NCBI RefSeq assembly: GCF_010727945.1
Contig: NZ_AP022569.1
Coordinates: 744,001-808,000 of the forward strand
Length of the DNA: 64,000 bases
Source: Mycobacterium cookii
GTDB taxonomy: Bacteria; Actinomycetota; Actinomycetes; Mycobacteriales; Mycobacteriaceae
Direction of reading: 5' to 3'
Position numbers and translations under genes: made by a program. Below are positions 41,995-59,152 of the stretch, in pieces. The notes below the pieces were generated by a model. That model was not told where the DNA came from and did not search any database. It saw nothing but the letters and a program-made list of their open reading frames with translations. How positions within the stretch are numbered: position 1 is the first letter of the stretch; each line of letters starts with the position of its first letter.

Positions 41995-42009
41995 TATGGT
42001 AAGACCATA
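41995..42009 (+). promoter_or_regulatory. FadR-type palindromic operator, site 1
   Basis: TATGGTAAGACCATA is a 6-bp inverted repeat around 3 bases with the GT-N3-AC core of FadR-family GntR operators. It overlaps a -10-like TAATAT (41992-41997), which places a repressor directly on the promoter of the ring-hydrolase operon. The ATG is 58 bases downstream. Confidence 0.7.
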
Positions 42010-42067
42010 AACGAGTGGCTTTCAGGACCTTCTGACTTGCCGGGCTTTCAATGAGGAGAGGCAACCG

Positions 42068-42862
42068 ATGACCGAGTTCACCGACATTTCCTACGAGGTC
42101 GACCGTGGTCTGGCCTGGATCACGATCAACAGGCCCGAACGCTACAACGCGTTTCGGGCGCGCACGCTCGACGAGCTGATTCGGGCCTTCAAATTGGCTT
42201 GGGGCAGTTCGGAAGTCGGCGTGATCTGCCTGACGGGGGCGGGCGAGAAAGCCTTCTGCACCGGTGGCGACCAGAAGCAGCGCGCCGAGACCGGTGACTA
42301 CGGCCCGTCCGAAACCGGGTTGTTCGAGGTGGATACGTTGCATCGGGTCATCCGGGACGTGCCGAAGCCGGTGATCGCGGCGGTCAACGGATTCGCGATC
42401 GGCGGCGGTCATGTTCTGCACGTGCTGTGCGACCTGACGATCGCCGCCGACACCGCGCTGTTCGGTCAAAACGGTCCGCGAGTCGGCTCGTTCGACGCGG
42501 GCTTCGGAACCGGCTACCTCGCGCGTGTGGTCGGCGAGAAGCGCGCACGCGAGATCTGGTTCCTGTGCCGCAGGTATTCCGCTCAGCAGGCCTACGACTG
42601 GGGACTGGTCAACAAGGTCGTACCGCCCGACCAGCTCAAGTCCGAAGTCCGCGCATGGGCCGACGAAATCCTGCAGCTTTCCCCGACCGCGTTGAAGGTT
42701 CTCAAGCAGTCGTTCAACACCGACACCGAACAATTCGCGTCGGTGGGTCAGATGGCGTACTCGACGCTGAAGATGTTCGGCGACACTCCCGAAGCGCAGG
42801 AAGGCATCACCGCCTTCAACGAGAAGCGCAGCCCCGAATTCGCTGCCTACCGGGGCAACTGA
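42068..42862 (+). CDS. BadI/MenB-like enoyl-CoA hydratase/isomerase family ring hydrolase
   Basis: 264-aa crotonase-fold enzyme. The oxyanion-hole segments are AFCTGGDQKQRA and FAIGGGHVLHVLCDLTIAAD. The block QNGPRVGSFDAGFGTGYLARVVGEKRAREIWFLCRRYSAQQAYDWGLVNKVV is the MenB/BadI pattern (naphthoyl-CoA synthase, 2-ketocyclohexanecarboxyl-CoA hydrolase). Since the gene is followed by acyl-CoA dehydrogenase, SDR and MaoC genes, hydrolytic opening of a beta-keto alicyclic ring thioester (BadI role) is more likely than menaquinone synthesis. A GAGGAG ribosome site precedes ATG 42068. Confidence 0.85.
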   Translation: MTEFTDISYEVDRGLAWITINRPERYNAFRARTLDELIRAFKLAWGSSEVGVICLTGAGEKAFCTGGDQKQRAETGDYGPSETGLFEVDTLHRVIRDVPKPVIAAVNGFAIGGGHVLHVLCDLTIAADTALFGQNGPRVGSFDAGFGTGYLARVVGEKRAREIWFLCRRYSAQQAYDWGLVNKVVPPDQLKSEVRAWADEILQLSPTALKVLKQSFNTDTEQFASVGQMAYSTLKMFGDTPEAQEGITAFNEKRSPEFAAYRGN

Positions 42863-42864
42863 GC

Positions 42865-43992
42865 ATGTTCACGGCCGAGCAGTCGGAGTTCGCGGCCGCG
42901 ATCGAACGATTCTGTGCCGACAACTGCGCCACCTTCGAACAGCGCGCGCAGTTGACCAACGGCCTGTCCAACAGCTCCGAACTGCTGCGACGGTTTGCCG
43001 AACTCGGCTGGCTCGGTGTGTCGATTCCCGTCGCATACGGCGGCGGGGGAGCGGGGATGGTCGAAGAGTGCATCTTCTTGGAGGAGACCGCGCGCGGCCA
43101 GGCGCCAATCCATGCCTACGGCACGGGATTGACTGCGGCACAGACCTATTTGCGACACGGCACCGAACAGCAGAAGAAGGAGGTCGTCGGCAACCTGTGC
43201 GCCGGGCACTTTGAAGCGATCGCGTTGTCCGAACCCGGCGCGGGGTCCGATCTCGCGGGGGTCCGCACCCGAGCGGTCCGCGACGATCACCGCTTCATCG
43301 TCAACGGCCAGAAGACCTGGATCACCGCGGCACATCTGGCCGATCACCTGCTGGTCCTCACCCGCACCGATCCCGACGCCGCAAAACACCACGGCCTGAC
43401 ACTGCTGTACCTGCCGACCTCGACGCCAGGACTGGATATCAAGGCGATCCAGACCATGGACGGCCACACCGTCAACGACGTGTTCTTCACCGACGTCGTC
43501 GTACCCGTCGACAACGTCGTCGGCGGGATCGGTGACGCCTGGCATCGGTTGATGCGCGGGCTCAACGTCGAGCGACTCATCATCGCCGCGATGTCGCAGG
43601 GCGCCGCACGCCGATCTCTGCAAGACACCATCGGCTATGTGCGCACCCGCGAACAGTTCGGCAGGCCCATCGGTACGTTCCAGGCCGTCCGCCATCGGCT
43701 GGCCGATCTGGCCGCCGAGATCGACTGCTGCCGCGCGTATGTGTATCAGGTGGCCGCTCAGATCGACGCCGGACTGGAAGACCAACTCGCCCGGGAAGGT
43801 TCGATCGCGAAACTCAAGTGCACCGAAGTGGCCAAACGTGCCGCGCTCGAGGGTGTGCAACTGATGGGCGGCAATGGCTACAGCGTCGAATTCGGCATGG
43901 AGGCGCAGGTCCGGAAAGCATTGGCACCACCGATCTACGGCGGCGCCAACGAGATTCAGCGCGAGATCATCGGGAAGAGCTTGGGACTATGA
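42865..43992 (+). CDS. acyl-CoA dehydrogenase
   Basis: 375-aa FAD enzyme of the acyl-CoA dehydrogenase family. The N-terminal helical domain, the substrate and FAD strand segment ALSEPGAGSDLAGVRTRA and GQKTWITAAHLADHLLVLTRT (about 125-170), and the C-terminal RTREQFGRPIGTFQAVRHRLADLAAEI and QLMGGNGYSVEFGMEAQVRKALAPPIYGGANEIQREIIGK are all present. The usual catalytic Glu position falls in YGGANEIQRE. ATG 42865 is 2 bases after the ring-hydrolase stop, and the end overlaps the SDR gene (ATGA). It may desaturate an alicyclic acyl-CoA. Confidence 0.93.
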   Translation: MFTAEQSEFAAAIERFCADNCATFEQRAQLTNGLSNSSELLRRFAELGWLGVSIPVAYGGGGAGMVEECIFLEETARGQAPIHAYGTGLTAAQTYLRHGTEQQKKEVVGNLCAGHFEAIALSEPGAGSDLAGVRTRAVRDDHRFIVNGQKTWITAAHLADHLLVLTRTDPDAAKHHGLTLLYLPTSTPGLDIKAIQTMDGHTVNDVFFTDVVVPVDNVVGGIGDAWHRLMRGLNVERLIIAAMSQGAARRSLQDTIGYVRTREQFGRPIGTFQAVRHRLADLAAEIDCCRAYVYQVAAQIDAGLEDQLAREGSIAKLKCTEVAKRAALEGVQLMGGNGYSVEFGMEAQVRKALAPPIYGGANEIQREIIGKSLGL

Positions 43993-44882
43993 CGCGCATC
44001 TTCGATCCGAGGGTGCTCGATGGCAAGCGCATTCTGATCACCGGCGGCGGTACTGGGCTGGGTCGCGGAGTCGCCCAGCGGTTGGTCGCCCACGGTGCCC
44101 ATGTGCATTTGTGGGGGCGGCGCGAATCTGTGCTGGCCGAGGCGGCCGCCGACATCGCGACCGGATATCCCGGCGCGATTCACTATCAGACGGTCAACGT
44201 TCGAGAATTCGACGCGGTCGACGCCGCGGTCGCCGAGATATGGGACCGGCACGGCCCGTTGACCGGAGTGTTGAACAATGCGGCTGCGAATTTCATTGCG
44301 CCGACGGTCAGTCTGAGCCCGCGTGCTTTCGACGCGATCACCTCGACGGTCATGACGGGTTCCTTCAATACGACGCTGGCCGTGGGCAGACGCTGGATTG
44401 CTGCGGGGCTGCCCGGATCGGTGCTGTCGAATCTGACGACGTGGGTGTGGAGCGGTTCGGCCTTCGTCGTCCCTTCGGCCATGGCGAAAGCTGCCGTGCA
44501 CGCGATGACGATGTCGCTGGCAGTCGAGTGGGGTCCGTACGGAATTCGCCTCAACGCCCTTGCGCCGGGGCCGATTCCGACCGAGTTCGCCTGGGAGATG
44601 CTCAATCCGACCGACAAGAGCTCGACCGGGGCCACTCAGCCCGAACAGATTCCGCTGCGCCGGTCGGGAACCATCGGCGAACTGGCGAACCTGACGATTT
44701 TCGCGTTCTCGGATGCGTGCGACTATCTCACCGGGGAGACGATCGCGATGGACGGAGGCCAGCGGCTCGCCGGCCCCAACACCTTCGCCGGCTTGTCGGT
44801 CATGAGCGAAGACGACTGGGTGCAGGCCCGCGCGCACAGTAAAGCGGCCTCCGCGTCGGCCAAGTCCGCCCGCTCGGTGTAG
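43989..44882 (+). CDS. short-chain dehydrogenase/reductase
   Basis: 297-aa SDR, similar in plan to 2,4-dienoyl-CoA reductases. The cofactor motif ILITGGGTGLGRG is near residues 16-28 and NNAAANFIAPT near 95. The catalytic Tyr of the usual YxxxK is not clear: the expected segment reads SNLTTWVWSGSAFVVPSAMAKAAVHAMT, where Lys is kept but Tyr is replaced by Val/Pro context, as seen in dienoyl-CoA reductases. It could equally act as a beta-hydroxyacyl-CoA dehydrogenase of the ring pathway. The start ATG 43989 overlaps the acyl-CoA dehydrogenase stop. Confidence 0.85.
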   Translation: MTRIFDPRVLDGKRILITGGGTGLGRGVAQRLVAHGAHVHLWGRRESVLAEAAADIATGYPGAIHYQTVNVREFDAVDAAVAEIWDRHGPLTGVLNNAAANFIAPTVSLSPRAFDAITSTVMTGSFNTTLAVGRRWIAAGLPGSVLSNLTTWVWSGSAFVVPSAMAKAAVHAMTMSLAVEWGPYGIRLNALAPGPIPTEFAWEMLNPTDKSSTGATQPEQIPLRRSGTIGELANLTIFAFSDACDYLTGETIAMDGGQRLAGPNTFAGLSVMSEDDWVQARAHSKAASASAKSARSV

Positions 44883-44895
44883 GCCCGTCACGAAC

Positions 44896-45357
44896 ATGAC
44901 CCGAATAATTTCCTCCATCGACGATGCCGTCGGCGCTGTCGGCGAAGAATTGGGCGTCTCCGACTGGTTGACCGTCGATCAGGATCGCATCGACGCGTTC
45001 GCTGATGCCACCGGCGACCACCAATGGATCCATGTCGACGTCGAGCGAGCCCGCAGCGATAGCCCGTTCAAAACGACTATTGCCCACGGCTTCTTGACGC
45101 TGTCGCTGATCCCGGGCTTGAGCAAGGCCAATTACCGGGTCGAGAACGCGAAGATGGGCATCAACTACGGGCTCAACAGGGTGCGCTTTCTCGCGCCGGT
45201 TCGGGTGGGCAGTCGCGTCCGGGTCCGATCTGACCTCGTCAACGCCGTCAAGGCCGGCGACTCGACGATCGATCTGACCGTCCGGCACACCGTTGAACTC
45301 GATAATTCCGACAAGCCGGCGGCCGTAGCCGAGCTGATCGCGAGAATGGTGTTCTGA
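44896..45357 (+). CDS. MaoC-type (R)-specific enoyl-CoA hydratase
   Basis: 153-aa hot-dog-fold hydratase. The active-site signature DAFADATGDHQWIHVDVERA carries the catalytic Asp and His of R-hydratases (about residues 37-50), followed by TIAHGFLTLSLIPGL. The length is normal for single-domain MaoC proteins. It lies 13 bases after the SDR gene and ends the operon of ring hydrolase, acyl-CoA dehydrogenase and SDR. It would hydrate an enoyl-CoA made by the dehydrogenase. Confidence 0.92.
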   Translation: MTRIISSIDDAVGAVGEELGVSDWLTVDQDRIDAFADATGDHQWIHVDVERARSDSPFKTTIAHGFLTLSLIPGLSKANYRVENAKMGINYGLNRVRFLAPVRVGSRVRVRSDLVNAVKAGDSTIDLTVRHTVELDNSDKPAAVAELIARMVF

Positions 45358-45452
45358 GCTGTTACGGACCACGTTCGACCGGATTTACCCGCAAATAGGC
45401 TAACCTTAGTGATAGGCCTTACCTTTAAGCCGAAGTCTGGGGGACCACAGCG

Positions 45453-46235
45453 ATGGCACAAGGTGAAACGAACGGCGGGACGAGCTCGGCGCCGACACGG
45501 TCGACGCTCCTGCTGAAACCGGTCGACGTTCCCAAAGCGTCCGACGTGTTGGCGCGTGAGCTGCGCGAGCGGATCCTCAGCGGCGAACTCCCCGAGGGAA
45601 CAGCGCTTCCGGCGGAGCGCGAATTGGTCAAGCAAACTCAGATGAGCCGGGCCACGGTGCGAGAAGCATTGCGAATCCTCGAGGTTCAAAATCTGGTGCG
45701 GGTCAGAGCGGGCCGGGCCGGTGGTGCGTTCGTCCAACGTCCGACCACGACGTCGATGGCCAGTTCGGTGAGCATGCTGATCCGGGGGCAACGGATCAAA
45801 CTGGCGGATCTGATGGAGACGCGCGAGGCGCTGGAACCGTTCTGCGCCGAATTGGCCGCCCGTAAACGAACCGACGAGGACCTGGCCGTGTTGGACCGGG
45901 CGAACAACGACATCGCCGACCTCGACTCCGACCTGTCGGCATTTCTGCAGGCCAACCTCGACTGGCATGTCGGGGTGGCGATGGCCAGCCACAATGAGTT
46001 ACTGATCGGATTCATGACCGCGTTGTCGCAAGCGATTTATGCGGGCACCGAGAACGCGGCCTTCGTCGATGAGAACGTGCGAACGGTCACGGCGCGAGCG
46101 CATAAATCGATCACCAACGCGATCCGCAGCGGCGACGCCGAGGCGGCGGCCCGGCGGATGCGCCGCCATGTGCACAGTTACGCCAAGGCCGCCCTCGCGA
46201 TGGATGACCGGCAGGCAATCAGCGTCGACGATTGA
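45453..46235 (+). CDS. GntR-family (FadR subfamily) transcriptional regulator
   Basis: 260-aa regulator. After a 25-residue tail comes the winged-helix GntR domain (VPKASDVLARELRERILSGELPEGTALPAERELVKQTQMSRATVREALRILEVQNLVRVRAGRAGGAFVQRP, about 28-98). An all-helical FCD ligand-binding domain follows (about 115-250) with the metal/ligand His pattern DLDWHVGVAMASHN and ARRMRRHVHSY. FadR-type proteins bind GT-N3-AC palindromes; five such sites lie in the surrounding 17 kb. It is the only GntR gene in the window. Its own promoter lacks the palindrome, so autoregulation is not indicated. Confidence 0.93.
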   Translation: MAQGETNGGTSSAPTRSTLLLKPVDVPKASDVLARELRERILSGELPEGTALPAERELVKQTQMSRATVREALRILEVQNLVRVRAGRAGGAFVQRPTTTSMASSVSMLIRGQRIKLADLMETREALEPFCAELAARKRTDEDLAVLDRANNDIADLDSDLSAFLQANLDWHVGVAMASHNELLIGFMTALSQAIYAGTENAAFVDENVRTVTARAHKSITNAIRSGDAEAAARRMRRHVHSYAKAALAMDDRQAISVDD

Positions 46236-46245
46236 CCGGCGGGCA

Positions 46246-46887
46246 TCACGCCACTGCTGGAAGCGCAAGCGGCGCTTCGGTTTTCGAAACAATCTCGTCA
46301 ACAGTGACGCCGGGCGCCGTCTCGATCAGGTGCAGACCGTCGTCGGCGACATCGATCACGGCGAGATCGGTGAAGATACGGTGCACGCAGCGTTTGCCGG
46401 TCAGGGGCAGCGTGCATTGCTCGACGATCTTGGCGCTGCCGTCCTTCGCGGTGTGCTCCATCATCACGAAGATCTGTCCGACGCCGTGCACCAGGTCCAT
46501 CGCCCCGCCCATGCCTTTGATCATCTTGCCGGGGATCGTCCAGTTGGCGAGGTCCCCGGCGGCCGAGACCTGCATGGCGCCCAGCACCGCGATGTCGAGG
46601 TGGCCGCCGCGGATGATCCCGAACGAGGACGACGAGCAGAAGAATGCCGCACCCGGCAAGGTGGTGACCGTCTCCTTACCAGCGTTGATCAGGTCGGCGT
46701 CGAGGTCCTTGCGCCGAGGGTACGGCCCGACGCCGAGAATCCCGTTTTCCGAATGCAAGACGACGGTGATGTCGGCAGGGATGTGGCCGGGGATCAGGGT
46801 GGGCAACCCGACGCCGAGGTTGACGTACTGCCCGTCGTGCAACTCGGCGGCAACCCGCGCCGCCAGTTCGTCTCGACTCCAGGTCAT
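46246..46887 (-). CDS. 3-oxoacid CoA-transferase, subunit B
   Basis: 213-aa beta subunit of a two-gene CoA-transferase (ScoB/PcaJ family). The catalytic Glu is in [11 protein letters not shown] (about residue 47). Other family blocks are [37 protein letters not shown] and [12 protein letters not shown]. It moves CoA between succinate or acetate and a 3-oxoacid. It follows subunit A by 28 bases on the same strand. It converges with the GntR gene across 10 bases. Confidence 0.94.
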
Positions 46888-46915
46888 ATGGCGCCACTCC
46901 TCCTCATCGCTGTAC

Positions 46916-47662
46916 TCATGTCCGCATCGTCTCCTTTTCGATCTGCTTCACCGGGTTGGCCACGTGTACCACCCGCTGAACGTAGATCCCCGGCGTATGT
47001 ACGTGGGCGGGTTCGATCTCGCCCGGTTCGACCAGGTGCTCCACCTGCGCGATGGTGATGCGGCCCGCCACGGCACAGTCCGGATTGAAGTTCGCGGCCG
47101 CCGCGTGATACACCAGGTTGCCATGCCGGTCCCCTTTGACGGCGTGCACCAGCGCGAAGTCGGTCCGGATGGCCCTCTCCAGAACGTAAGCACGCCCGTC
47201 GAATTCGCGGATCTCCTTCGGCGGTGAGGCGACGGCCACCGTACCGTCGTGGTGGTAGCGCCAGGCCAGACCGCCGTCGGCCACCTGAGTCCCGACTCCG
47301 GCAGGCGTGTAGAAGGCGGGGATCCCGGCCCCGCCGGCACGCAGCCGCTCGGCCAGCGTGCCCTGCGGGGTCAGTTCGAGCTCGAGTTCACCCGCCATGT
47401 ACTGCCGGGCGAATTCCTTGTTCTCTCCCACATATGAGTTGACTGTGCGCCGGATCCTCTTGTGTTCCAGGAGTATTCCCAGGCCGACCCCGTCGACGCC
47501 CAGGTTGTTCGAGACCGTCTCGAGGTCGCTCACCCCGAGGTCGAGGACCGCCGCGATCAACGCCTGGGGAATGCCGCACAGCCCGAACCCCCCTACAGCC
47601 AGCGACGATCCGTCTGTCACGTCGGATACTGCCTCTGCCGTCGTCGCCACGACTTTATCCAT
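46916..47662 (-). CDS. 3-oxoacid CoA-transferase, subunit A
   Basis: 248-aa alpha subunit (ScoA/PcaI family). The N-terminal glycine motif [20 protein letters not shown], the block [28 protein letters not shown] and [14 protein letters not shown] are typical. A GTG 6 bases upstream of ATG 47662 is an alternative start; the spacing to AGGAGG favours the ATG. It is adjacent to subunit B and follows the acyl-CoA dehydrogenase gene by 22 bases, so it belongs to the CoA ligase operon. It probably activates a beta-keto or dicarboxylic acid released by the ring pathway. Confidence 0.93.
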
Positions 47663-47684
47663 CGTCACGATCCTCCTCGGTGTG

Positions 47685-48878
47685 TCAGCTCTTCGGCATG
47701 CCGAGAATGCGCTCGGCGACGATGTTGCGCTGGATGAACGTCGACCCGCCGGCGATGGCGGTTCCCCTCGCCTGATACGCCAGCCGCAGCCACCGCTGCT
47801 GAGACGCCGTCGACGCGTCCGCGATGCCTTTCTCGGCGAGGGCGAACTGCCCGCCCATCTCGTCGAGCTCCAGACCGAAATCGGCGATGTCTTCGACCAG
47901 CGGACAGAAGAACAGCTTCCCGATGGAGGTGACCGGGCCCGGCGGTTCGCCCTCGGCGGCCCCGGTGATCACCCGCTGTCCGATCAGGTAGTGCATCAGG
48001 GCACGCCCGTAGAGGTCGGCGATCCGTTGGCGCACCAGCGGATCGGCGCCCAGCGGGGTGCCGTCGTCGGCGCTTCGAGCTGCAATCTCGCGAATCAGAT
48101 CGTTGACCGCGCCGGTGGTGTTCACCCGCCCGGTGGCGATACCCACCCGCTCGAAGGCCAGGGTGCCCATCGCCACCTGCCAGCCGCTGTCTACCTCGCC
48201 GAGAACGCAGTCATCGGGAACGAACACGTCGTCGAGGAACACCTCGTTGAACTCCGACTCGCCCAGCATGTGCGCCAGCGGGCGCACCTGGATGCCCGGG
48301 CTGGTCATGTCGAGCAGGAAGTACGTGATCCCGCGGTGCCGCGGTCCGCCACCGGTGCGGGCCAGCAAGATCGCCTGGGACGCCAGTTGGGCACGGCTGG
48401 TCCATATCTTCTGCCCCTGAATTCGCCAACCGCCGTCGACGTTGGTGGCAGAGGTACGCAACGAGGCCAGGTCCGAACCGGCCTCCGGCTCGGAGAACAA
48501 CTGGCACCAGATTTCGTTGCCGGTGAGTATTTCTCGCAGATAGCGCTGATGCTGTGCCGGCGTACCGAACTGGATGATCGTAGGTCCGGCGAAGTCTTCG
48601 CCGATGATGTTGAGCCGCTCCGGCGCGCCGGCTCTGTCGAGCTCCTCGTTGAACACCGCCCGCAGCTTGGCATCCGCGCCGCCGCCGCCGTGTTCCTTGG
48701 GCCATGACAGCCCGGCATACCCGGCGTCGTAGAGCAGCCGCTGCCAGGCGCGCCAGTAGTCGAGTTTGTCCTCAAGGCGTGCCGGTTCAGCGCCACCGAG
48801 ACGCGGGAGCGTGTCCTGCAACCACACCCGCACGCGGGCACGGAATTCCGCCTCGGCGGGACTGTCCTTCAATTCCAT
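47685..48878 (-). CDS. acyl-CoA dehydrogenase
   Basis: 397-aa FAD enzyme of the FadE17/FadE-like branch. YAGLSWPKEHGGGG (about 54-67), QLFSEPEAGSDLASLRTSA, GQKIWTSRAQLASQAILLART and the C-terminal GGSTFIQRNIVAERILGMPKS are diagnostic. In this branch the catalytic base often differs from classical fatty-acyl-CoA dehydrogenases, and such enzymes frequently act on cyclic or branched acyl-CoAs. The start ATG 48878 overlaps the ligase stop by one base, so the ligase and dehydrogenase are coupled. Confidence 0.93.
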   Translation of the reverse strand: MELKDSPAEAEFRARVRVWLQDTLPRLGGAEPARLEDKLDYWRAWQRLLYDAGYAGLSWPKEHGGGGADAKLRAVFNEELDRAGAPERLNIIGEDFAGPTIIQFGTPAQHQRYLREILTGNEIWCQLFSEPEAGSDLASLRTSATNVDGGWRIQGQKIWTSRAQLASQAILLARTGGGPRHRGITYFLLDMTSPGIQVRPLAHMLGESEFNEVFLDDVFVPDDCVLGEVDSGWQVAMGTLAFERVGIATGRVNTTGAVNDLIREIAARSADDGTPLGADPLVRQRIADLYGRALMHYLIGQRVITGAAEGEPPGPVTSIGKLFFCPLVEDIADFGLELDEMGGQFALAEKGIADASTASQQRWLRLAYQARGTAIAGGSTFIQRNIVAERILGMPKS

Positions 48879-50581
48879 CAGCTGGCGCCCGCAACTTCCT
48901 TGGCTCGCGCGGCTTCCTCGTCGAGGCGCCTTTCGATGTCTTTGCGCAGTTCGTGTTTGAGGACCTTGCCGGTCGCCGTCATCGGTAGCGACTCGATGAC
49001 GACGACGCGCTCGGGTGTCTTCTGGATCGGCATACCGCGCTCGAGCAGAAATTCGCGGATGTCGTCGACCGTGGGCGCCTCATGGCCCAGCGCCGCGACC
49101 ACGAAGCAGCACACCCGCTCGCCGAGGCGCTCGTCGGGCATTCCGACGACTGAGAAGGCCTGTAGTGCGGGATGATTCGCCAGATGCTCCTCGATTTCGC
49201 GGACGCTGATGTTCATCCCACCGCGGATGACGATGTCTTTCGTTCGACCGGTCACCCGCACATAGCCATCCGGGGTCATCGTCCCGAGATCTCCCGACTT
49301 GGAAAAGCCGTCGTCGGTGAACAGTGCCGCGGTTTCCACGGGATTGGCGAGGTATTCGATCATGTGAGCCGGTCCGCGGTAAGCGATGTCACCTTCCGCG
49401 CCGCGAGGCACCTCGGCGCCGTCCGCGTTGACGATCTTGATCTCTGAGCCCGGCATCGCCCGGCCGTCCGACGTCAATGCGCGCGACACGTCATCCGTGA
49501 CCGAACACGTCGAGGTGACCAGGTTTTCGCTGCGCCCGTAGAGACTGAGCACCTTCATGCCCGGCAGCGTTGCGCCGGCCCGCTCGACGACCGCCGCGGG
49601 GATCGGGGCACCCGCACATGTCCAGAGCCGCAACGTCGACAGGTCGTGGCGCTCAACGTCGTAGGCGGATAGCAAGGTGTGCAGAAACGTCGGTGCGGTC
49701 ACCGCGGCGGTGCAGCCGAAGCGCTGGATCTCCTCGATGCCGCGCGCTGGATCCCATCTGGCCATGATGTGCGTCGACGCTCCGGTCAGCATCGGCAGCA
49801 AGACGCTGGTGACCAGCCCGGTGGTGTGCGCGATGGGGGAGGGACCGAACTGAACGTCGGTTTCGGAGTATCCGAACGGCCCGATCAGCTGACGTGAGCC
49901 CGAACAGTAGGTGTTGAACGTGTGCACACACCCCTTCGGTCGCGATGTGGTCCCGGAGGTGTAGACGATTACAAACGGGTCATCCGGACCCGCCGCGGCG
50001 TCGAGTTCCTCTCTGGCGCTGGTGTCGTCGGTATCGACTTCCAGATTCTGCAGAGAGAACACATCGCTGTGCGCACCGATGACATCGTCAGCGGCCGCGT
50101 CGGGGCGGGCCACGACGATCGTCAGGTCGGGATGGTCTTCACGCAGACCGAGATACATGTTCAGATAATCGAATTCAGCGAACCGGGCCGGAGCGAAGAC
50201 TGCCCGCACCCCTGCGTTGGACAGCACGTAGCCGACGTCTTCGCGTCGATAGATCGGCATGATCGGGACCATGATGACGCCCAGGCGCGACACTGCGGTC
50301 AGCACCTGAATGAACTCCACCCAGTTGGGCAACTGCACGGCGACGGTGTCACCGCTTCGCAGTCCATAGCGGTGCAGACCGACGGCCAGCCGTTGGCCGG
50401 CATCGAAAAGCTCTCGATAGGTCAGCGATCGCGTTCCGTCGGTCGCAAACACCTTGTCAGGGTTGTCGTCGAGGCGCCGCAGCAGGAGGTCGTGGAACGT
50501 ATCGGTGCTCCACAACCCCGCGCGGTAGTACTGCTCGATTTCTTGAGTTGTGTACCGGGCGGTGTGGGGACTCGGCTTCAT
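48878..50581 (-). CDS. acyl-CoA synthetase, cyclohexanecarboxylate-CoA ligase (AliA)-like
   Basis: 567-aa adenylate-forming CoA ligase. The AMP-binding loop VYTSGTTSRPKGCVHTFN is near residues 200-217, SLYGRSENLVTST near 355, and the hinge and C-terminal GDLGTMTPDGYVRVTGRTKDIVIRGGMNISVREIEE near 430-465, with the catalytic Lys in PMTATGKVLKHELRK. The N-terminus (ARYTTQEIEQYYRAGLWSTDTFHDLLLRRL) and NWVEFIQVLTAVSRLGVIMVPIMPIYRR resemble AliA-type ligases. It leads the operon ligase, acyl-CoA dehydrogenase, CoA-transferase A and B, with a FadR-type operator and a TATACT -10 upstream. Confidence 0.9.
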   Translation of the reverse strand: MKPSPHTARYTTQEIEQYYRAGLWSTDTFHDLLLRRLDDNPDKVFATDGTRSLTYRELFDAGQRLAVGLHRYGLRSGDTVAVQLPNWVEFIQVLTAVSRLGVIMVPIMPIYRREDVGYVLSNAGVRAVFAPARFAEFDYLNMYLGLREDHPDLTIVVARPDAAADDVIGAHSDVFSLQNLEVDTDDTSAREELDAAAGPDDPFVIVYTSGTTSRPKGCVHTFNTYCSGSRQLIGPFGYSETDVQFGPSPIAHTTGLVTSVLLPMLTGASTHIMARWDPARGIEEIQRFGCTAAVTAPTFLHTLLSAYDVERHDLSTLRLWTCAGAPIPAAVVERAGATLPGMKVLSLYGRSENLVTSTCSVTDDVSRALTSDGRAMPGSEIKIVNADGAEVPRGAEGDIAYRGPAHMIEYLANPVETAALFTDDGFSKSGDLGTMTPDGYVRVTGRTKDIVIRGGMNISVREIEEHLANHPALQAFSVVGMPDERLGERVCCFVVAALGHEAPTVDDIREFLLERGMPIQKTPERVVVIESLPMTATGKVLKHELRKDIERRLDEEAARAKEVAGAS

Positions 50582-50650: not shown

Positions 50651-50661
50651 ATGGTCAGACC
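50651..50661. promoter_or_regulatory. FadR-type operator, site 2
   Basis: ATGGTCAGACC keeps the GGTCAGACC core of the palindrome; the outer bases of the second arm are lost (CGA instead of AT). It lies about 70 bases upstream of the CoA ligase start and just above its promoter. Confidence 0.55.
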
Positions 50662-50699
50662 GAAAGTGGCAAGGGTCCCGACGAATCGAAGCGGGGCGC

Positions 50700-51528: not shown

Positions 51529-52509
51529 CTAGTCGATTGTCAGAACACATTTGCCGAACGTGCGTCCGCGTTCGAGGTAGTCGTGCGCCTCGGCCGCGCG
51601 GTCCAACGGAAACGCCCGATCGATGACCGGCGGACGCATCGAGCAGCGATCGATCATGTCGAGCAATCCGGCGAAATCCCGGCTGCTGCCCATGGTGGTT
51701 CCGAGCAGATCGAATTGACCGAAATAGAAGCGACGGATATCCATCTGCGCGGTGTCGGCGGCGTTCGCGCCCAGCACCACGAGCCGGCCGCCGGGCCGCA
51801 GCGCTTGCACGGATTCGCTCCAGCGGCCGACCGGGTCGAGGATCAGATCGAATCCGGCACCGCCGGGTGACAGGGTTCGCGCGTGTTCGGGCCATTCGGG
51901 TTCGCTGTGCAGCACGCCGCCGCATGCGCCGGCGGACACCGCACGCTCGACGGTGCCAGTCGATGACGAGGTCACCGCGATGCTGGCGCCGGCAGCGACC
52001 GCGAGTGCGATCGCCATGGTGGAGATCCCGCCGCCGGCGCCGATCACCAGCATCGACTCGCCCGCCCGCAAGCGTCCGCGGGAAAACAGCGCGCGGTAGG
52101 TGGTGACTCCGACGAGCGGCAGGGCCGCGGCTTCGGTCCAGCTCAGTCCCGCGGGTTTGGCGGCCAGACAACCGGTCGGCACGCTGAGCAGCTCCGCGTA
52201 GGTGCCCGGCACGTGATCGCCCAGAATCTGCCAGCCGCTGCCGGGTGCCTCTTCGCGATCGCCCCAGTCGAGCGACGGCAGAATCACCACTTCCTCGCCG
52301 GTGTCGGTACGCACGCCGGCACCGTCAGCGCCGATGATGTGCGGCAGTGGTGAACGGTAGCGACCCTGGCGCACCAGGACGTCATGCCAGTTCAGTGCGC
52401 TTGCGCGCAGGGCGACGGTGGTCCAGCCCGGGCGCGTGGCCGGGTCCGGATGTTCGCCCGGCCGCAGTACCGCGGCGGTGCCGAACTCGTTCATGATCAC
52501 AGCGTGCAA
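51529..52509 (-). CDS. quinone-oxidoreductase-like medium-chain dehydrogenase
   Basis: 326-aa zinc-free medium-chain reductase. The N-terminal domain (HPDPATRPGWTTVALRASALNWHDVLVRQGRYRSPLPHIIGADGAGV) and the Rossmann motif SMLVIGAGGGISTMAIALAVAAGASIAVTSSS (about 154-185) are clear. It likely reduces an enone or enoyl-CoA with NADPH. The start TTG 52509 sits 5 bases after AGGAGG (52515-52520); an internal ATG at 52494 is possible. A FadR-type site lies directly upstream. It leads a two-gene operon with the enoyl-CoA hydratase. Confidence 0.88.
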   Translation of the reverse strand: MHAVIMNEFGTAAVLRPGEHPDPATRPGWTTVALRASALNWHDVLVRQGRYRSPLPHIIGADGAGVRTDTGEEVVILPSLDWGDREEAPGSGWQILGDHVPGTYAELLSVPTGCLAAKPAGLSWTEAAALPLVGVTTYRALFSRGRLRAGESMLVIGAGGGISTMAIALAVAAGASIAVTSSSTGTVERAVSAGACGGVLHSEPEWPEHARTLSPGGAGFDLILDPVGRWSESVQALRPGGRLVVLGANAADTAQMDIRRFYFGQFDLLGTTMGSSRDFAGLLDMIDRCSMRPPVIDRAFPLDRAAEAHDYLERGRTFGKCVLTID

Positions 52510-52520: not shown

Positions 52521-52533
52521 ATGGCCTGACCAT
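52521..52533. promoter_or_regulatory. FadR-type operator, site 3
   Basis: ATGGCCTGACCAT matches the ATGGTCNGACCAT palindrome with one mismatch. A further half-site (GACCAT, 52536-52541) follows after two bases. It lies 11 bases upstream of the TTG of the quinone-oxidoreductase-like gene, at its ribosome site, so binding would block the start of that operon. Confidence 0.65.
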
Positions 52534-52655: not shown

Positions 52656-52662
52656 CGGTCTA

Positions 52663-52675
52663 ATGGTCTGACCAA
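52663..52675. promoter_or_regulatory. FadR-type operator, site 4
   Basis: ATGGTCTGACCAA matches the 13-bp palindrome at 12 positions. It sits directly after the -10 TATGCT, at the expected transcription start of the LuxR pair. Together with site 3 it brackets the divergent promoter region 52510-52716. Confidence 0.7.
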
Positions 52676-52716
52676 TGGACACAGTTTGGGCGGTCCCGAG
52701 CAGAGAAAGAGAAGCG

Positions 52717-53871
52717 ATGGTTTCACAAATGCTGACGGCGTCGATCGCGGAAGACCCGCTGGTGATTGCGCGTGCCGAGGCAGTTGTCGCGGCTGCCGCC
52801 GACCACCTCGAGGTGGCGCCTCCCGATCTGACGCCGACTGCGTTGGGGCACCAGCTGGACAACCTGAGGCAACGACTCGAGCAACGCATCGCGTTGACGG
52901 CTGAGCCGCGAGATGACTCGGCGGCGACGGCCGAAATCCTGATCTCGATTCTGCGGTTGCAGTGCGAACTGCTCGACCACGATCTGGCCCGACGGCTCAA
53001 AAGCATGTCGGAAATCAGTCAGGCGCTCGGGCAGCTACGGGGTCTGCCGCCGCGCAAAATGATCTTCGCCGCACCGGAAGTGCTCAGCAGGGAACTGGCT
53101 TTCGCCCGGGCGATGATCTCCACGGTGCGGGGTTCACTCTGGCTCCCTCTGCACATGCACATCGAAGACGAAGCGGCCGATCCACATTCGCGGCAGTTCC
53201 ACGAATACGTGGCGGGCCGCCACATCCAGCTGGGCGACGCTCCACTGGAGACAGAACTCGTCCGCAAGCGATGCGGCGCCTTCGCCCCGTCACCGATGGA
53301 CGACAAGCGCACCTTCAAGGAGATCGTCAAAGTCAGTAACAGCTTCGGCTACATCGCCGCCCCCATCACCGTTCAGGGCAGGGCGGTCGGAATCCTGCAC
53401 GCGGACCGTCCCGAACCCCACGGACTGGTGACGATGGAGCATCTCGAGCAGCTGGAGGCTTTCGCCGAATGTCTCTCGGTGGCTTTCGAGAGTGCGGCCC
53501 TCGACGAAAAGGCCGCGCAACAGCGCGTGGAAATCGACAGTCTCAGCGGCAACATCGACGAGCTGCTCGGTAGGTCGCCACGATCGGTGCTGTGGTCATC
53601 GCAGGGTGCGGCGCGCGGACCGCGATACGACACCGGCCGCCATCATGATCAGCCCGGCGCCCCCGAACTGACCTCACGCGAGCGGGAGATCATGTCGCAC
53701 GTGGCGACCGGGGCCACCAACGGTCAGATCGCCCGCTGCCTTGTGATCTCCGAAGGGACGGTGAAGTCGCATCTGAAGCACATCGCCAAGAAGCTAAACA
53801 CCACCAGCAGGGCGGCGGCGGTGGCAACCTACGCCGGTGTCGCCACGGCCGACGCCGGAATGCCGCGATGA
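52717..53871 (+). CDS. GAF-domain LuxR-family transcriptional regulator
   Basis: 384-aa regulator. It has an N-terminal helical region, a GAF-like sensor domain (about 110-260, including EIVKVSNSFGYIAAPITVQGRAVGILHADRPEPHG) and a C-terminal LuxR HTH (LTSREREIMSHVATGATNGQIARCLVISEGTVKSHLKHIAKKLNTTSRAAAVATY, about 315-370). I chose ATG 52717 (MVSQMLTASIA) after a purine-rich stretch, because the upstream in-frame ATG 52675 touches the operator. It overlaps the next LuxR gene as ATGA. It is a paralogue of the broken regulator at 33.8-34.9 kb. Confidence 0.9.
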   Translation: MVSQMLTASIAEDPLVIARAEAVVAAAADHLEVAPPDLTPTALGHQLDNLRQRLEQRIALTAEPRDDSAATAEILISILRLQCELLDHDLARRLKSMSEISQALGQLRGLPPRKMIFAAPEVLSRELAFARAMISTVRGSLWLPLHMHIEDEAADPHSRQFHEYVAGRHIQLGDAPLETELVRKRCGAFAPSPMDDKRTFKEIVKVSNSFGYIAAPITVQGRAVGILHADRPEPHGLVTMEHLEQLEAFAECLSVAFESAALDEKAAQQRVEIDSLSGNIDELLGRSPRSVLWSSQGAARGPRYDTGRHHDQPGAPELTSREREIMSHVATGATNGQIARCLVISEGTVKSHLKHIAKKLNTTSRAAAVATYAGVATADAGMPR

Positions 53872-54944
53872 ACGCTCGCGCGATGGTGGCCCGGCTGAAC
53901 GAGCTCGACGAGCAGTTGTGCTCCGCGTTCGGGATCCCGCGAGCAGAGGACGCAACGACACTCGACGCGGCGATCACGATGTCGGCCGCGACCACCGAGC
54001 GGCTCATGGCCCACGAACGCGGCCTTCGCGACGAATCGCCGATTGGGCCGACTATCCTGGCCGCGTTCCTGCAGTCGCAGGTGGAAGCGCGCCAGATGAA
54101 AGCCGGCGACCGCGCCGACGTGGTGCGGTCGTTGACCGATGGCGTCCGTCGGATGAAGAAGGCCGGATCGCTGCAAGGCCTCGGACATCAGGCGTGTACC
54201 GAACTGTGCGAGATGCTCGGCTTCGACAGCGCGTTGATGTCGTTCGTCGAGGACGACGGATTCGTGGTCGAGGAATCCGATCACAGCCTTGGTGGCCCCA
54301 CGGTGATCCCGCGTCGTCACTGCACAGTGGAAAAAGCATGTATTCGCCTGCGTGAGATCACCGGGACGAATGGCGCCGACATGCTCGTGTCACCCGGTTA
54401 TGGCGAGCTGCTCGGCACGACGGACTATCTCGTGGCTCCCGTCATCACGAATTCGCAAGTGGTTGCCCTCATTCACGTCGGGCGCCGCGGCGACGACGGT
54501 GTCTCGCGCGTCGACGTCGACGTGTTCGATGCGTTCGCATCCGCCTATTCGTTGCTTCATGAGCGGATGCTGAATACCGAACGCGTACAACAACAACGGA
54601 CCTCGATTGCCCGCGCGGCAGCGCGGCTGACGGAGCAGGCGGACCGCATCGCCGCCGCGGCCATCAGCTTCGATGTGGAAGACGACACTCGCGTTGAGCC
54701 ACCGAGCATTCCGGCGGACTCGGCGTTGGCGGCGACCCTCTCGCACCGGGAGCGCCAAGTCTTCGAGAGACTGGTGCTCGGAGCTTCCAATGCCGAGATC
54801 GCCGACGACCTCGTCATCACCATTGAAACGGTCAAGACACACGTGAAGCGGATTCTGCGCAAGATCGGCGCCATCAACCGGTCGGAGGCGATAGCGCTCT
54901 ACCTGGACGACACCAAGACCACGTCACGGCGACGCGGTCAATAG
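53868..54944 (+). CDS. GAF-domain LuxR-family transcriptional regulator
   Basis: 358-aa regulator of the same architecture as the preceding gene: an N-terminal helical part, a GAF-like domain (about 100-225, LGHQACTELCEMLGFDSALMSFVEDDGFVVEE) and a LuxR HTH (LSHRERQVFERLVLGASNAEIADDLVITIETVKTHVKRILRKIGAINRSEAIALYL, about 288-345). ATG 53868 overlaps the previous stop, so the pair is co-translated and may form a heteromer. Likely targets are the surrounding CoA ligase and dioxygenase operons, but no binding motif can be assigned. Confidence 0.9.
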   Translation: MNARAMVARLNELDEQLCSAFGIPRAEDATTLDAAITMSAATTERLMAHERGLRDESPIGPTILAAFLQSQVEARQMKAGDRADVVRSLTDGVRRMKKAGSLQGLGHQACTELCEMLGFDSALMSFVEDDGFVVEESDHSLGGPTVIPRRHCTVEKACIRLREITGTNGADMLVSPGYGELLGTTDYLVAPVITNSQVVALIHVGRRGDDGVSRVDVDVFDAFASAYSLLHERMLNTERVQQQRTSIARAAARLTEQADRIAAAAISFDVEDDTRVEPPSIPADSALAATLSHRERQVFERLVLGASNAEIADDLVITIETVKTHVKRILRKIGAINRSEAIALYLDDTKTTSRRRGQ

Positions 54945-54975
54945 CCGTTGGGCGACAATCTCTTTCCCGCCCGGC

Positions 54976-55776: not shown

Positions 55777-55831
55777 CGTTTCGTCCTTGCGGTCGTTGAG
55801 GTTTCAGGCGGTTGAGCTTCAATTCTCGGCC

Positions 55832-56644
55832 TCACAGGGGAGTCGACGTAGCACCGACCCGGCCGCGATCGACCTTGTCGAAGAAGTTCTGCGACCGCTC
55901 TTGCACGGTGGCGTTGCCGCCGCACAATGCATAGCCCCACATCGCTTCGACGCGCAGCTGGTCGTGCAGCGGACGGCCGATGATCTCTAACACCGTCTCC
56001 TTCGCCGATTCGACGGCGGCTTGGTCGCACCGCAGGATTCGTTGGACCACCGCGTCGGTTTCGGCCATCAGCTTTTCGTGTGGCACCACCCGGGCAACCA
56101 TGTTGGCCGTCAGTGCCCGCTCAGCGGATATCGGTTCACCGGTCAGCAGCAATTCCAGCGCGACCCCGACGCCACATGTGTTGACCAGACGCACAATTCC
56201 ACCGTCTGCGGGGTGCATGCCGCGGCGCACCTCGAAGGTGCCGAACTGCGCACGCTCAGAGGCGATGCGGATGTCGCAGGCCATCGCCAGCTCGACGCCG
56301 TGCCCCACGCACCAGCCGTTGATCGCGGCGACGATCGGCTTGCTGACGCGCGACAACGGTCCCCGGGTGATCCCGCAGAGACCGTCCTCGAGGCGCTCGC
56401 GGCCGACCATCGGCCCGACCGTCTGCCATTCCGGCGCATGGGTTTTCAAGTCGGCGCCCGCGGTGAACGCGTCGCCGGTTCCGGTGATGACCGCGACCCG
56501 CAGCGCTGGGTCGTCGCGGAAGTCGCGCCAGGCAGCGCACAGCAGCTCGTGGCATTCGATGTCGATCGCGTTCTTGACCTCTGGACGATTAAGCGTGATG
56601 TAGGCGACCGCATCGCGTTTTTGGTAGAGAACTTTTGCTGACAT
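55832..56644 (-). CDS. enoyl-CoA hydratase/isomerase family protein
   Basis: 270-aa crotonase. DAFTAGADLKTHAPEW (about 56-71) and INGWCVGHGVELAMACDIRIASERAQFGTFEVRRGMHPADGGIVRLVNTCGVGVALELLLTG (about 108-170) supply the oxyanion hole and the active-site loop. The segment RRGMHPADGG replaces the usual hydratase Glu pair with Asp-Gly, so true hydratase activity is not certain. It lies 15 bases after the SDR gene on the same strand, in the operon led by the second CoA ligase. Confidence 0.9.
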   Translation of the reverse strand: MSAKVLYQKRDAVAYITLNRPEVKNAIDIECHELLCAAWRDFRDDPALRVAVITGTGDAFTAGADLKTHAPEWQTVGPMVGRERLEDGLCGITRGPLSRVSKPIVAAINGWCVGHGVELAMACDIRIASERAQFGTFEVRRGMHPADGGIVRLVNTCGVGVALELLLTGEPISAERALTANMVARVVPHEKLMAETDAVVQRILRCDQAAVESAKETVLEIIGRPLHDQLRVEAMWGYALCGGNATVQERSQNFFDKVDRGRVGATSTPL

Positions 56645-56659
56645 AGCAGAACCTTTCGC

Positions 56660-57547
56660 TCAATGCTGGTTCGACGCGGTGACGTCGAGGATGGCAGGGC
56701 TTGCGGCACGGTGGAATCCGTCGAAGGGGGTGTTGTGGTGCACGGGTTGCAGCTCCCACCAACCCGGTTTGGCGTTGGGCGCTCCACCGTCGACGCGCAC
56801 ACAGGTTCCGGCGATGAAGCTGGCAGCAGGTGACAGCAAGAACACCACCGCGGCGGCAACTTCGGCCTCGGTCCCGAACCGCTGCAGCGGGATTTCGCGG
56901 GCAACCTGGTTGCGGATGAAGTCGGTGTCTTTGCTGTCGTAGGTGTCGAGTCCGCTCGATGCGATAGAGCCCGGTGCGATGGTGTTGACCCGTACACCGG
57001 CGGCGGCCCACTCGGTGGCGGCCGATTCACTCAGCGTCAACATTCCGCCGCGGGCAGCCGCCGAATGGGCGAAGTGCGGCCAGCCGTGCCAGATGTCGGC
57101 GATCATGTTGACCACGGCACCGCCGTGCTGCTTGAACCATTTAACGTAGATCTCGCGCATGACTATGAAGCCGCCGGTCAGATTGTTTCGCACGACCGCC
57201 TCGAAACCCTTGGTGGTAATGGTTTCCAGGGCCGCCCGGTACTGTCCGCCGGCGTTGTTGAACAAGCCGTCGATGCGTCCGTGCTCGGCGAGGACCGCGT
57301 CGACCACATCGCTGACGGCAGCCTCGTCGCGGATGTCGGCGGTGTGAACGGAGACGCGGCCGCCGTCGGCGCGGATCTCGGCGCGCACGGCCTCGAGCTT
57401 GTCGGGGTTGCGGCCGACGATCGCGACGTCAGCACCCAACGCGGCGAGTTCGTGAGCGGTGCATCTGCCGATCCCGCTACCACCGCCGGTGATCACAACT
57501 GTCTGACCGGCAAAGAGATCGCTCTTGAATATCGAGTTGTAGCCCAT
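56660..57547 (-). CDS. short-chain dehydrogenase/reductase (2,4-dienoyl-CoA reductase-like)
   Basis: 295-aa SDR. The cofactor motif VVITGGGSGIGRCTAHELAALGADVAIVGRN is near residues 16-46 and FNNAGGQYRAALE near 95. In the active-site region VVNMIADIWHGWPHFAHSAAARGGMLTLSESAATEW the usual YxxxK is replaced by HSAAARG, as in peroxisomal 2,4-dienoyl-CoA reductase-like proteins that use other residues. I chose ATG 57547 (MGYNSIFKSDLFAG). The gene starts inside the 3' end of... the ligase gene region: it begins 21 bases before the ligase stop at 57568, with no overlap. Confidence 0.87.
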   Translation of the reverse strand: MGYNSIFKSDLFAGQTVVITGGGSGIGRCTAHELAALGADVAIVGRNPDKLEAVRAEIRADGGRVSVHTADIRDEAAVSDVVDAVLAEHGRIDGLFNNAGGQYRAALETITTKGFEAVVRNNLTGGFIVMREIYVKWFKQHGGAVVNMIADIWHGWPHFAHSAAARGGMLTLSESAATEWAAAGVRVNTIAPGSIASSGLDTYDSKDTDFIRNQVAREIPLQRFGTEAEVAAAVVFLLSPAASFIAGTCVRVDGGAPNAKPGWWELQPVHHNTPFDGFHRAASPAILDVTASNQH

Positions 57548-57567
57548 GCATTGCCTCCTTTGGCTGG

Positions 57568-59112
57568 TCATACTCGTTGCTGCGGATGACTCTGAAGCTG
57601 TTGGCGCAGAGTCGCTTTCTGCACCTTTCCGCTGGCGGTCAGCGGTAGCCCATCGGTCAGGTAAATATTTTTTGGCACCTTGTATCCGGCGATCAGACCG
57701 CGGCAGTGTGCCTCGAGTTCAGCGGCGTCGACATTCGCAGCAGGATGAAGATCAACGAAGGCGACTACCCGTTCACCCCACTTGCTGTCGGGCGCACCGA
57801 CAACGGCGACTGACCGCACCGACGGATGTGTCGCCAGCGCGCGTTCAACCTCGGCTGAGTAGATGTTCTCGCCGCCACTGACAATCATGTCCTTCAGTCG
57901 ATCAACGAGATATAGGTTGCCGTTCTGGTCGCGGATGCCGACGTCGCCCGTGTGGTACCAGCCGTCGACGATCGCGGCGGCGGTCGCCTCGGGCTTGTTC
58001 CAGTAGGCGTTGAGCATCCACGGTGAGCGCACCAACACCTCGCCGGCTTCCTGCGCGGCCAGCTCGCTTCCATCGGTGCCCACGATTCGCAGTTCGACGC
58101 CGGGCATCGGTTGCCCGCAGGATTGCAACAGGTCCGGACTGTCGGGGCGGTGCTGCTCGGGTCGCAGCAGCGTGATGATGAATGTCTCTGTGGTGCCATA
58201 GAACTGCACGAAATCGCAGCCGAACACCTCGAGTGCCCGCCGCAAGGTGTGCTGCCCGATCGGCGAACCGGCGTAAAGTATTCGGCGCAGCGACGAGAAG
58301 TCACCCTGATTTGGCGAAGCGTCGTCAAGCAGCATCTGCATCGCCGTCGGAACAAGGCAGGTTACGGTCGGGCGAAGCGCTGCGACCGCGGCCTTGAAGG
58401 CCCGGGGATCGAATGCGGGCAAAATCGCTAGGGCCGCACCGTGATACAGCGCCGGTAACGAGACCAAGGTTCCGGCCAGGTGGAAGTTCGGCATCGCCAT
58501 CAGGCCGATGTCCTCGGAGGTCCAATTCACTGATGGTTCCATCGCGGCGGCATCGAACCAGCGCATCAGGGCGCCGTGCGAAATCGGGACACCCTTGGGG
58601 GCGGCGGTAGTGCCCGACGTATAGGCCAATAGCGCAGTAGCCTCGGCGGTCAATGCAATCCTTGGTCCTGCCTCGTCGACACCAGAGGCCCACGTGTCCA
58701 ACTCGTCTTCGGGGACGATAGTCACGCTGATCCCCGCTGCCGTGCACACCCGCTCGGCGACTTCGGTGAAGTCACGGCCGACGAAGATCAGGGGGACATT
58801 CGCGTCCCGCACGACTTCCACCAGTTCCGCTGGTGCGCTGCGCCAGTTCAGCGGGGTGAGCGCGGATCCCGCTTTCGTCACGCCTATCCAGATCTCAAAG
58901 AACGCCGAGGAATTCCTGCCCAGGAAGCCGATGTGCGATCCTGGCCGTATTCCGGCGGCAAGAAGCGCATTGCCGATGCGGTTCGATCGGACGTTCAGTT
59001 GGCCGTATGTGGCCACGCGACCGGAATCGATCAATGCAGCCTTATCCGGTGCCGCGTCCGACCAGGCCTGGGCCATGTCAGGGAGGCAATGGATGTCTGC
59101 GGTGACTGCCAA
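57568..59112 (-). CDS. AMP-dependent acyl-CoA synthetase
   Basis: 514-aa adenylate-forming ligase. The AMP-binding loop LAYTSGTTAAPKGVPISH is near residues 168-185, VQFYGTTETFIITLL near 305, GDVGIRDQNGNLYLVDRLKDMIVSGGENIYSAEVE near 395-430, and the catalytic Lys is in PLTASGKVQKATLRQ near 500. TTG 59112 is used; ATG 59076 would drop 12 residues (ADIHCLPD...). A perfect FadR-type operator lies 28 bases upstream. It heads the operon ligase, SDR, enoyl-CoA hydratase, SDR. It probably activates a carboxylic acid released by the neighbouring meta-cleavage pathway. Confidence 0.9.
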   Translation of the reverse strand: MAVTADIHCLPDMAQAWSDAAPDKAALIDSGRVATYGQLNVRSNRIGNALLAAGIRPGSHIGFLGRNSSAFFEIWIGVTKAGSALTPLNWRSAPAELVEVVRDANVPLIFVGRDFTEVAERVCTAAGISVTIVPEDELDTWASGVDEAGPRIALTAEATALLAYTSGTTAAPKGVPISHGALMRWFDAAAMEPSVNWTSEDIGLMAMPNFHLAGTLVSLPALYHGAALAILPAFDPRAFKAAVAALRPTVTCLVPTAMQMLLDDASPNQGDFSSLRRILYAGSPIGQHTLRRALEVFGCDFVQFYGTTETFIITLLRPEQHRPDSPDLLQSCGQPMPGVELRIVGTDGSELAAQEAGEVLVRSPWMLNAYWNKPEATAAAIVDGWYHTGDVGIRDQNGNLYLVDRLKDMIVSGGENIYSAEVERALATHPSVRSVAVVGAPDSKWGERVVAFVDLHPAANVDAAELEAHCRGLIAGYKVPKNIYLTDGLPLTASGKVQKATLRQQLQSHPQQRV

Positions 59113-59130
59113 AGCTGCGCCTAGATCTCG

Positions 59131-59152
59131 ACTATAATAATGGTCAGACCAT
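59131..59152 (-). promoter_or_regulatory. promoter with perfect FadR-type operator, site 5
   Basis: ATGGTCAGACCAT (59140-59152) is a perfect 13-bp palindrome. On the minus strand the -10 TATAGT lies at 59131-59136, so the operator fills the spacer between -35 and -10 of the ligase promoter, the classic place for repression. Confidence 0.75.

Follow-up and report, generated by a model that had tools for sequence, protein, structure and literature searches.

Between positions 41996 and 59152 of a 64,000-nucleotide stretch of the Mycobacterium cookii genome (NZ_AP022569.1, positions 744,001 to 808,000; hereafter the window, whose numbering is used unless genome coordinates are given), five copies of a 13-bp palindrome surround gntR1 (45453..46235, + strand), a gene for a GntR-type regulator, amid genes for coenzyme A (CoA)-dependent ring degradation. 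Are these palindromes the operators of a single regulon and, if so, which protein reads them? We give a probability of roughly 0.83 to the reading that they are operators of a FadR-subfamily GntR circuit, which would switch one ring-degrading CoA-dependent pathway. What was computed comprises the sites, their concentration, their conservation at promoters, their absence before those control genes that were examined, their co-occurrence with the GntR and the conservation of its DNA-contact residues. The five palindromes are real rather than chance matches, and at least seven operators belong to the circuit.

The consensus put forward in a preliminary description of this DNA, ATGGTCNGACCAT, has 12 specified positions over which mismatches were counted, and all five sites were found where that description had placed them. 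O1 (ATGGTAAGACCAT, 41996..42008; one mismatch, matrix score 27.3) lies 5′ of a BadI/MenB-like ring-hydrolase operon, O2 (ATGGTCAGACCGA, 50651..50663; two mismatches, 23.3) 5′ of CoA ligase a, O3 (ATGGCCTGACCAT, 52521..52533; one mismatch, 24.8) 5′ of a quinone-oxidoreductase-like gene (qor), O4 (ATGGTCTGACCAA, 52663..52675; one mismatch, 27.0) 5′ of a pair of LuxR-type regulator genes and O5 (ATGGTCAGACCAT, 59140..59152; no mismatch, 28.0) 5′ of CoA ligase b; four of the five match at least 11 positions, as had been noted. Their proposed location in promoter regions also holds, each site lying directly 5′ of a gene start, clear of the called genes; O4 shares one base with the called ATG of luxR1, whose true start may be the ATG at 52718 behind the purine-rich AGAGAAAGAGAAG, and some sites are covered by mechanical open reading frames in other frames. 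Overlap with −10 or −35 elements, claimed for several sites, was recovered at 50651 (one) and 59140 (two) as consensus matches only and near chance level, given that the three sigma-70-like hits in 17.4 kb all fall over sites and 2.1 would be expected by chance. Outside the qor–luxR1 region, most sites lie about 6–90 bp before the start and the ligase a and b sites lie over such promoter-like matches, a placement that fits repression at these predicted promoters.

With at most one mismatch, the consensus occurs at 13 distinct places in the 5,318,517-base genome, 4 of which fall within the 17.2 kb from 41996 to 59152, where about 0.03 would be expected from the other nine; the genome scan that had been suggested as a check thus finds the near-perfect copies concentrated here. 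With up to two mismatches there are 129 places genome-wide against 62 for the reversed pattern, and with up to three the window holds 25 places against 24.0 expected, which is no excess. Because the loose scan showed no enrichment, only near-perfect copies are informative, and strict thresholds and conservation were used instead. That chance-level count is what speaks for regarding the palindromes as chance matches, or as a habit of promoter sequence without any regulator; set against the concentration of the sites, their conserved position at homologous promoters and the control genes described below, this explanation is barely credible. An extended form, TWATGGTCNGACCATWA, composed after the sites had been seen, matches with up to two mismatches at six genome places, all within 48.6 kb (genome 785994–834620), and its reversed control at none; the six are four of the five window sites and two places outside the window (genome 833409 and 834606). 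At up to three mismatches it has 13 genome places, 7 of them in the cluster, and the reversed control has 15.

A symmetrised weight matrix was derived from 72 gene/site entries in the promoters of relatives, with the M. cookii genome excluded from training and a 400-kb sample of that genome serving as background. The seven M. cookii sites score 23.3–28.0; apart from them, no place in 104 kb scores above 9.3, and the best place in the 400-kb background reaches 11.5. When the tested gene family was left out of the training, the M. cookii sites scored 19.7–28.0 versus at most 12.6 elsewhere. The score of 28.0 for O5 was obtained with no ligase-b site in the training, and counterparts of O5 stand at the same place in two relatives (G047 with no mismatch, G081 with two).

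Conservation was followed in 31 named loci whose GntR is 75–89% identical to GntR1, by searching 200 nt upstream and the first 20 nt of each recognisable gene for sites with at most two mismatches. Such sites precede the ligase a gene fadD_a in 22/22 cases, the acyl-CoA dehydrogenase genes acad3 in 17/17 and acad4 in 18/18, the second GntR gene gntR2 in 7/7, badI in 12/13 and luxR1 in 9/10; acad4 and gntR2 have one operator in common, and the best site of luxR1 promoters is the O3 or the O4 of the intergenic region shared with qor. Before genes presumed to be internal to operons, sites are nearly absent: ech2 0/22, acad2 1/23, maoC 0/12, luxR2 0/9, coatA 1/7, coatB 0/7, acad1 0/4, sdr1 0/4, and thiolase, sdr5 and coatX 0/17 each. 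The motif is not equally frequent elsewhere, since only 153 of 4000 random 220-nt stretches of the same loci, with the real sites left in, contain one, compared with 22/22 for fadD_a. The recurrence of sites at the same promoters in related mycobacteria, which had been named as a check, extends to seven other GntR-holding genomes (one known as a 5.2-kb contig only), where sites stand before the same genes. The relatives also carry further sites before genes outside the query set, for example at G081:118623, G018:60650, G043:53007 and G043:58682.

The sites also track the regulator, which is present in 8 of 148 sampled mycobacterial genomes when presence is scored as a match at E ≤ 1e-40. Upstream regions scoring at least 20 were found for 7/7 badI and 7/7 acad3 genes of genomes with the GntR, and, among the loci retrieved from GntR-less genomes, for 0/8 badI-like genes and 0/23 acad3 paralogs. 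Extended-motif places average 4.1 per genome in the 8 genomes with the GntR vs 0.68 in the 140 without it (Mann–Whitney P 4e-7, a value that ignores kinship and how the pattern was chosen), and in G098, G018, G081, G043 and G067 all of them are on the cluster contig. Conservation, matrix scores and the GntR-less controls together support the proposal that the ring-hydrolase operon, both CoA-ligase operons, the quinone-oxidoreductase-like operon and the LuxR pair form one local regulon.

Which protein would read these operators? GntR1 has a winged helix (PF00392, 59.4 bits against a cut-off of 27) followed by an FCD sensor domain (PF07729, 91.5 against 24.3), with FadR_C (PF07840) just sub-threshold at 22.2 against 23.6, and lies outside the NCBIfam FadR equivalogs (TIGR02812, 44.7 bits against 249.2; NF003444, 47.7 against 189). 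Its structure model is helical, the wing being followed by seven helices (H99-110 to H229-250); since confidence is moderate (pLDDT 79.4, pTM 0.65) and the 50 PDB matches listed have TM scores of 0.35–0.51 by query length, with an rmsd of 5–14 over both domains, the model supports the fold only. Residues E55, R56, S65, R66 and R70 are invariant in 21/21 aligned proteins, and E55, R56, R66 and R70 correspond in our alignment to E34, R35, R45 and R49 of FadR, which contact DNA according to PMC4494728 and PMC7797058; the place of FadR Thr46 is occupied by Ala, and His65 is not kept. These features, together with a palindromic operator with a GT-Nx-AC core at the target promoters, assign GntR1 to the FadR subfamily of the GntR family, and the adjacent FadR-subfamily GntR is most likely the reader of the sites.

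GntR1 is not alone, however. The description of one GntR gene amid the sites stands insofar as gntR1 is the only FCD-type GntR gene found in the window, and fails in that a 78%-identical paralog, GntR2, is encoded 45 kb downstream and outside it (genome 834653–835399). The recognition helix QTQMSRATVREALRILEVQNL is identical in the two M. cookii proteins, which should therefore read the same operators, and because GntR2 also sits behind two more of them, GntR1 cannot be named as the sole regulator. In a tree that was midpoint-rooted for drawing only, the GntR proteins fall into clade I (GntR1, 13 rows), clade II (GntR2, 8 rows) and clade III (12 rows), the last of which groups with GntR2. Where enough upstream sequence was available, 11/11 clade III GntR genes are themselves preceded by a site, which again speaks for a GntR as the reader. 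It is conceivable, if unlikely, that the operators are read by GntR2 alone and that GntR1 now serves in a different role or at other sites. For this speak the promoter of gntR2, which contains an operator in 7/7 named relatives versus only 2/12 named clade I gntR1 promoters, and the grouping of clade III with the GntR2 side. The shared helix speaks against such a division of labour, as does the presence of GntR1 in 8/8 strains that have GntR2, M. cookii included; moreover, a scan that used GntR1 words detected no GntR2 in 5/12 of the named strains of clade I, so that GntR1 may act alone there.

A tentative idea, which we regard as rather doubtful, is that the paralogs share the at least seven operators and sense different intermediates, the pathway opening only when both ends signal; GntR1 would then report from the ring-opening operon and the self-controlled GntR2 from beside the β-oxidation block. 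Clade III mycobacteria appear to manage operators of the same type with a single GntR; four clade III genomes have one copy at E ≤ 1e-40. A clade III GntR also occurs at L051:82-852, on a contig binned as Pseudonocardia (MAG RYN_179), together with a badI gene preceded by a site-like sequence with three mismatches, which may reflect lateral transfer or a binning error.

A third FCD GntR, the divergent GntR3 (L017:1674-2447, genome 809674–810447), is encoded between gntR1 and gntR2. That GntR3 should be the reader is very improbable: its 79–91% identity in 6/6 other genomes covered over at least 40 kb makes it a candidate, but it has R/S/P/N where FadR has the contact residues E34/R35/R45/R49 (contacts as in PMC4494728), and in 6/7 genomes no site with up to two mismatches occurs in the first 30 nt of the gene or the 320 nt before it, the site in the seventh being that of the divergent badI. 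With its altered recognition helix and its position beside an mce-type transport operon (L017:2738-12058), GntR3 probably acts separately and may regulate the transporter. Binding of the palindrome by a factor outside the GntR family, either a TetR protein encoded elsewhere or the LuxR pair, is improbable as well, if less so than a role for GntR3. A site does precede the LuxR pair itself, and the genome has 135 TetR_N matches; however, four site-carrying genomes (G018, G067, G043 and G098) showed no luxR in the 40 kb covered of each, none of the TetR matches listed lies at 785–836 kb of the M. cookii genome, and the motif has the GT and AC cores of the FadR subfamily.

Several of the observations count against a GntR circuit, beginning with the lack of excess at three mismatches, the chance of a TetR gene in the cluster beyond the matches listed and the co-conservation of GntR3, another FCD GntR, in the same islands. 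The matrix scores are not wholly independent of the proposed consensus, because that consensus guided the choice of training sites and of the extended pattern and because some training entries are one operator read from two sides. Sites precede qor in only 10/22 loci, and 9 of these 10 loci also contain luxR1. In the control comparison, the genes of GntR-less genomes, at 65–67% identity for badI-like genes and 81–83% for the acad3 paralog, are diverged homologs and not clear orthologs, and several of the GntR-genome rows are strains used in matrix training. Two of the 140 GntR-less genomes have four extended sites, about the mean of genomes with the GntR, and some extended sites of GntR genomes lie on other contigs (3/6 in G047, 2/2 in G145). 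As already seen, few clade I gntR1 genes are preceded by a site, and the M. cookii gntR1 promoter has no convincing one; its best operator-like place (45413..45425), with a score of 9.3 below the background maximum of 11.5, is probably not functional. Finally, GntR binding, repression, the operon limits and the effector are what we infer from the sequences.

In the favoured reading, in which GntR1 and GntR2 share operators in M. cookii, a GntR dimer would occupy the 13-bp core ATGGTC(A/T)GACCAT with its A/T flanks, each half-site contacted by one winged helix, and would repress transcription at the promoter or close to it; entry of a pathway metabolite into a metal-containing FCD pocket would then release the protein from the operator. 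The effector had been presumed to be a CoA thioester of the pathway, which the sensor does not support: it is an FCD domain in which N168, H172, H217 and H239 are invariant in 21/21 proteins and occupy the positions of the metal ligands in CGL2915 and TM0439 (the latter as given in PMC6608401). An N/H/H/H-type arrangement is described for metal-binding, small-ligand FCD regulators in PMC6608401 and PMC7797058, the former describing metal-containing FCD pockets as fitting a small organic compound. A small carboxylate fits a sensor with such conserved metal-ligand residues and is somewhat favoured ahead of a CoA ester; the latter stays a possible effector because PMC7797058 places the acyl-CoA-regulated FadR in the same wider subfamily.

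The seven operators would control about 21 genes. Behind O1, on the + strand, are a BadI/MenB-like crotonase-fold enzyme that is the presumed ring hydrolase (42068..42862; NCBIfam menB-type 5e-106 and badI 2e-102, all below equivalog cut-offs, with nearest solved structures of MenB type), an acyl-CoA dehydrogenase (42865..43992, scanned as the longer frame 42427-43992), a short-chain dehydrogenase (43989..44882, scanned as 43818-44882) and a MaoC-like hydratase (44896..45357), the last three assigned by Pfam. Following maoC after a 95-bp gap, gntR1 is probably co-transcribed with this operon, so that the level of GntR1 would be tied to O1. O2 would govern, on the − strand, acyl-CoA ligase a (48878..50581; second-best model cyclohexanecarboxylate-CoA ligase, below cut-off), an acyl-CoA dehydrogenase (47685..48878; nearest model pimeloyl-CoA dehydrogenase large subunit, below cut-off) and CoA-transferase subunits A (46916..47668, scanned as 46934-47668; TIGR02429 above cut-off) and B (46246..46887; TIGR02428 above cut-off). 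The qor unit behind O3 comprises, also on the − strand and by profile match, the zinc-type alcohol dehydrogenase/quinone oxidoreductase-like gene (51529..52509) and an enoyl-CoA hydratase family gene (50700..51518), while the LuxR pair behind O4 consists of two GAF-LuxR regulators on the + strand (luxR1, 52675..53871, and regulator 2, 53868..54944; both Pfam). O3 and O4 are 142 bp apart here and 147–148 bp apart in two relatives; as this spacing is not kept in helical phase, a looping role was dropped. O5 precedes acyl-CoA ligase b (57568..59112), an overlapping short-chain dehydrogenase (56660..57571) and an enoyl-CoA hydratase family gene of the presumed ligase b operon (55832..56644), all on the − strand and assigned by Pfam.

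Outside the window, one operator lies between gntR2 and the divergent acad4 (an acyl-CoA dehydrogenase, IpdE2-like below cut-off) and the other in front of acad3-sdr-thiolase-CoA transferase; acad3 and acad4 are neighbours under these two operators (L018:4189-6540), and their products may assemble into a heteromeric, steroid-type acyl-CoA dehydrogenase. Between gntR1 and gntR2 there are also genes for a Rieske dioxygenase and a LigB-type dioxygenase, a hydratase-like gene, the mce operon and the third FCD GntR. Because the genes at 59204-63927 of the window (Rieske dioxygenase, LigB-type dioxygenase, dehydrogenase and 2-keto-4-pentenoate-hydratase-like genes) have no operator above background, the aromatic-ring step seems to be under separate control.

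Other palindromes recur in the sampled genomes. A different one, TACTGGTCGGACCAGAA, was found in a number of GntR-less Mycobacterium genomes (among the matches listed, for example at G037:C2:539066, G085:C1:3793939 and G146:C1:1352665) and also at G047:C22:83334, in a genome that has the GntR; it is nearer than the regulon site to the E. coli FadR operator, and is perhaps the operator of another conserved GntR. A second near-palindrome, TAATGGTTAGAGCATTA, recurs letter-identical, among the matches listed, in six genomes, at G108:C3:579439, G007:C66:3906, G120:C220:8137, G006:C1:6755861, G045:C1:6308537 and G047:C112:115417.

Searches of open PMC articles brought up no title or abstract opening describing this regulon, which is not proof of absence. 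For a pathway of ring degradation present in few mycobacteria (8/148), the analysis names an operator, a regulator and a set of genes that can be tested. It links about 21 genes, several of them without an assigned step, to a single pathway, and the two repressors make a clean natural example of paralogs that retain the same recognition helix.

How does the circuit compare with known systems? With E. coli FadR it shares the winged-helix residues (E34, R35, R45 and R49, equivalent to E55, R56, R66 and R70) and a palindrome with a TGGTCNGACCA core; unlike FadR, to which it is about 20% identical, GntR1 has an FCD sensor above cut-off with FadR_C only sub-threshold, its targets belong to a ring-cleavage pathway, and the training sites of the regulon have A or T at the centre and at position −6. 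The metal-binding FCD regulators (LldR/CGL2915, TM0439, NanR, HypR and Atu1419) have histidine ligands that are conserved in GntR1, where Asn stands at the Asp place, and the best sequence and fold matches of GntR1 include 6az6, CGL2915 (2di3), NanR and Atu1419; GntR1 differs in its pathway and in that its metal and ligand binding is predicted. As in the cyclohexanecarboxylate (bad/ali) pathway of Rhodopseudomonas palustris and Rhodococcus, whose steps, with a Rhodococcus set, are described in PMC4591350, there are a BadI-like hydrolase, an AliA-like ligase and a pimeloyl-CoA-dehydrogenase-like enzyme. The three M. cookii enzymes, however, are below equivalog cut-offs, the hydrolase scores slightly higher as MenB, and the island also holds a Rieske/extradiol set and an mce operon, for which reason the substrate is probably larger. 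KstR2, a TetR-type protein with another operator, is one repressor over several mycobacterial ring-catabolism operons. The present circuit resembles such regulons in placing several CoA-dependent ring-degradation operons under one type of repressor, and in its IpdE2-like (below cut-off) acad4, and differs from them in the family of the regulator and in the operator; it adds one more to the many catabolic regulons of the FadR subfamily, and is of a familiar type.

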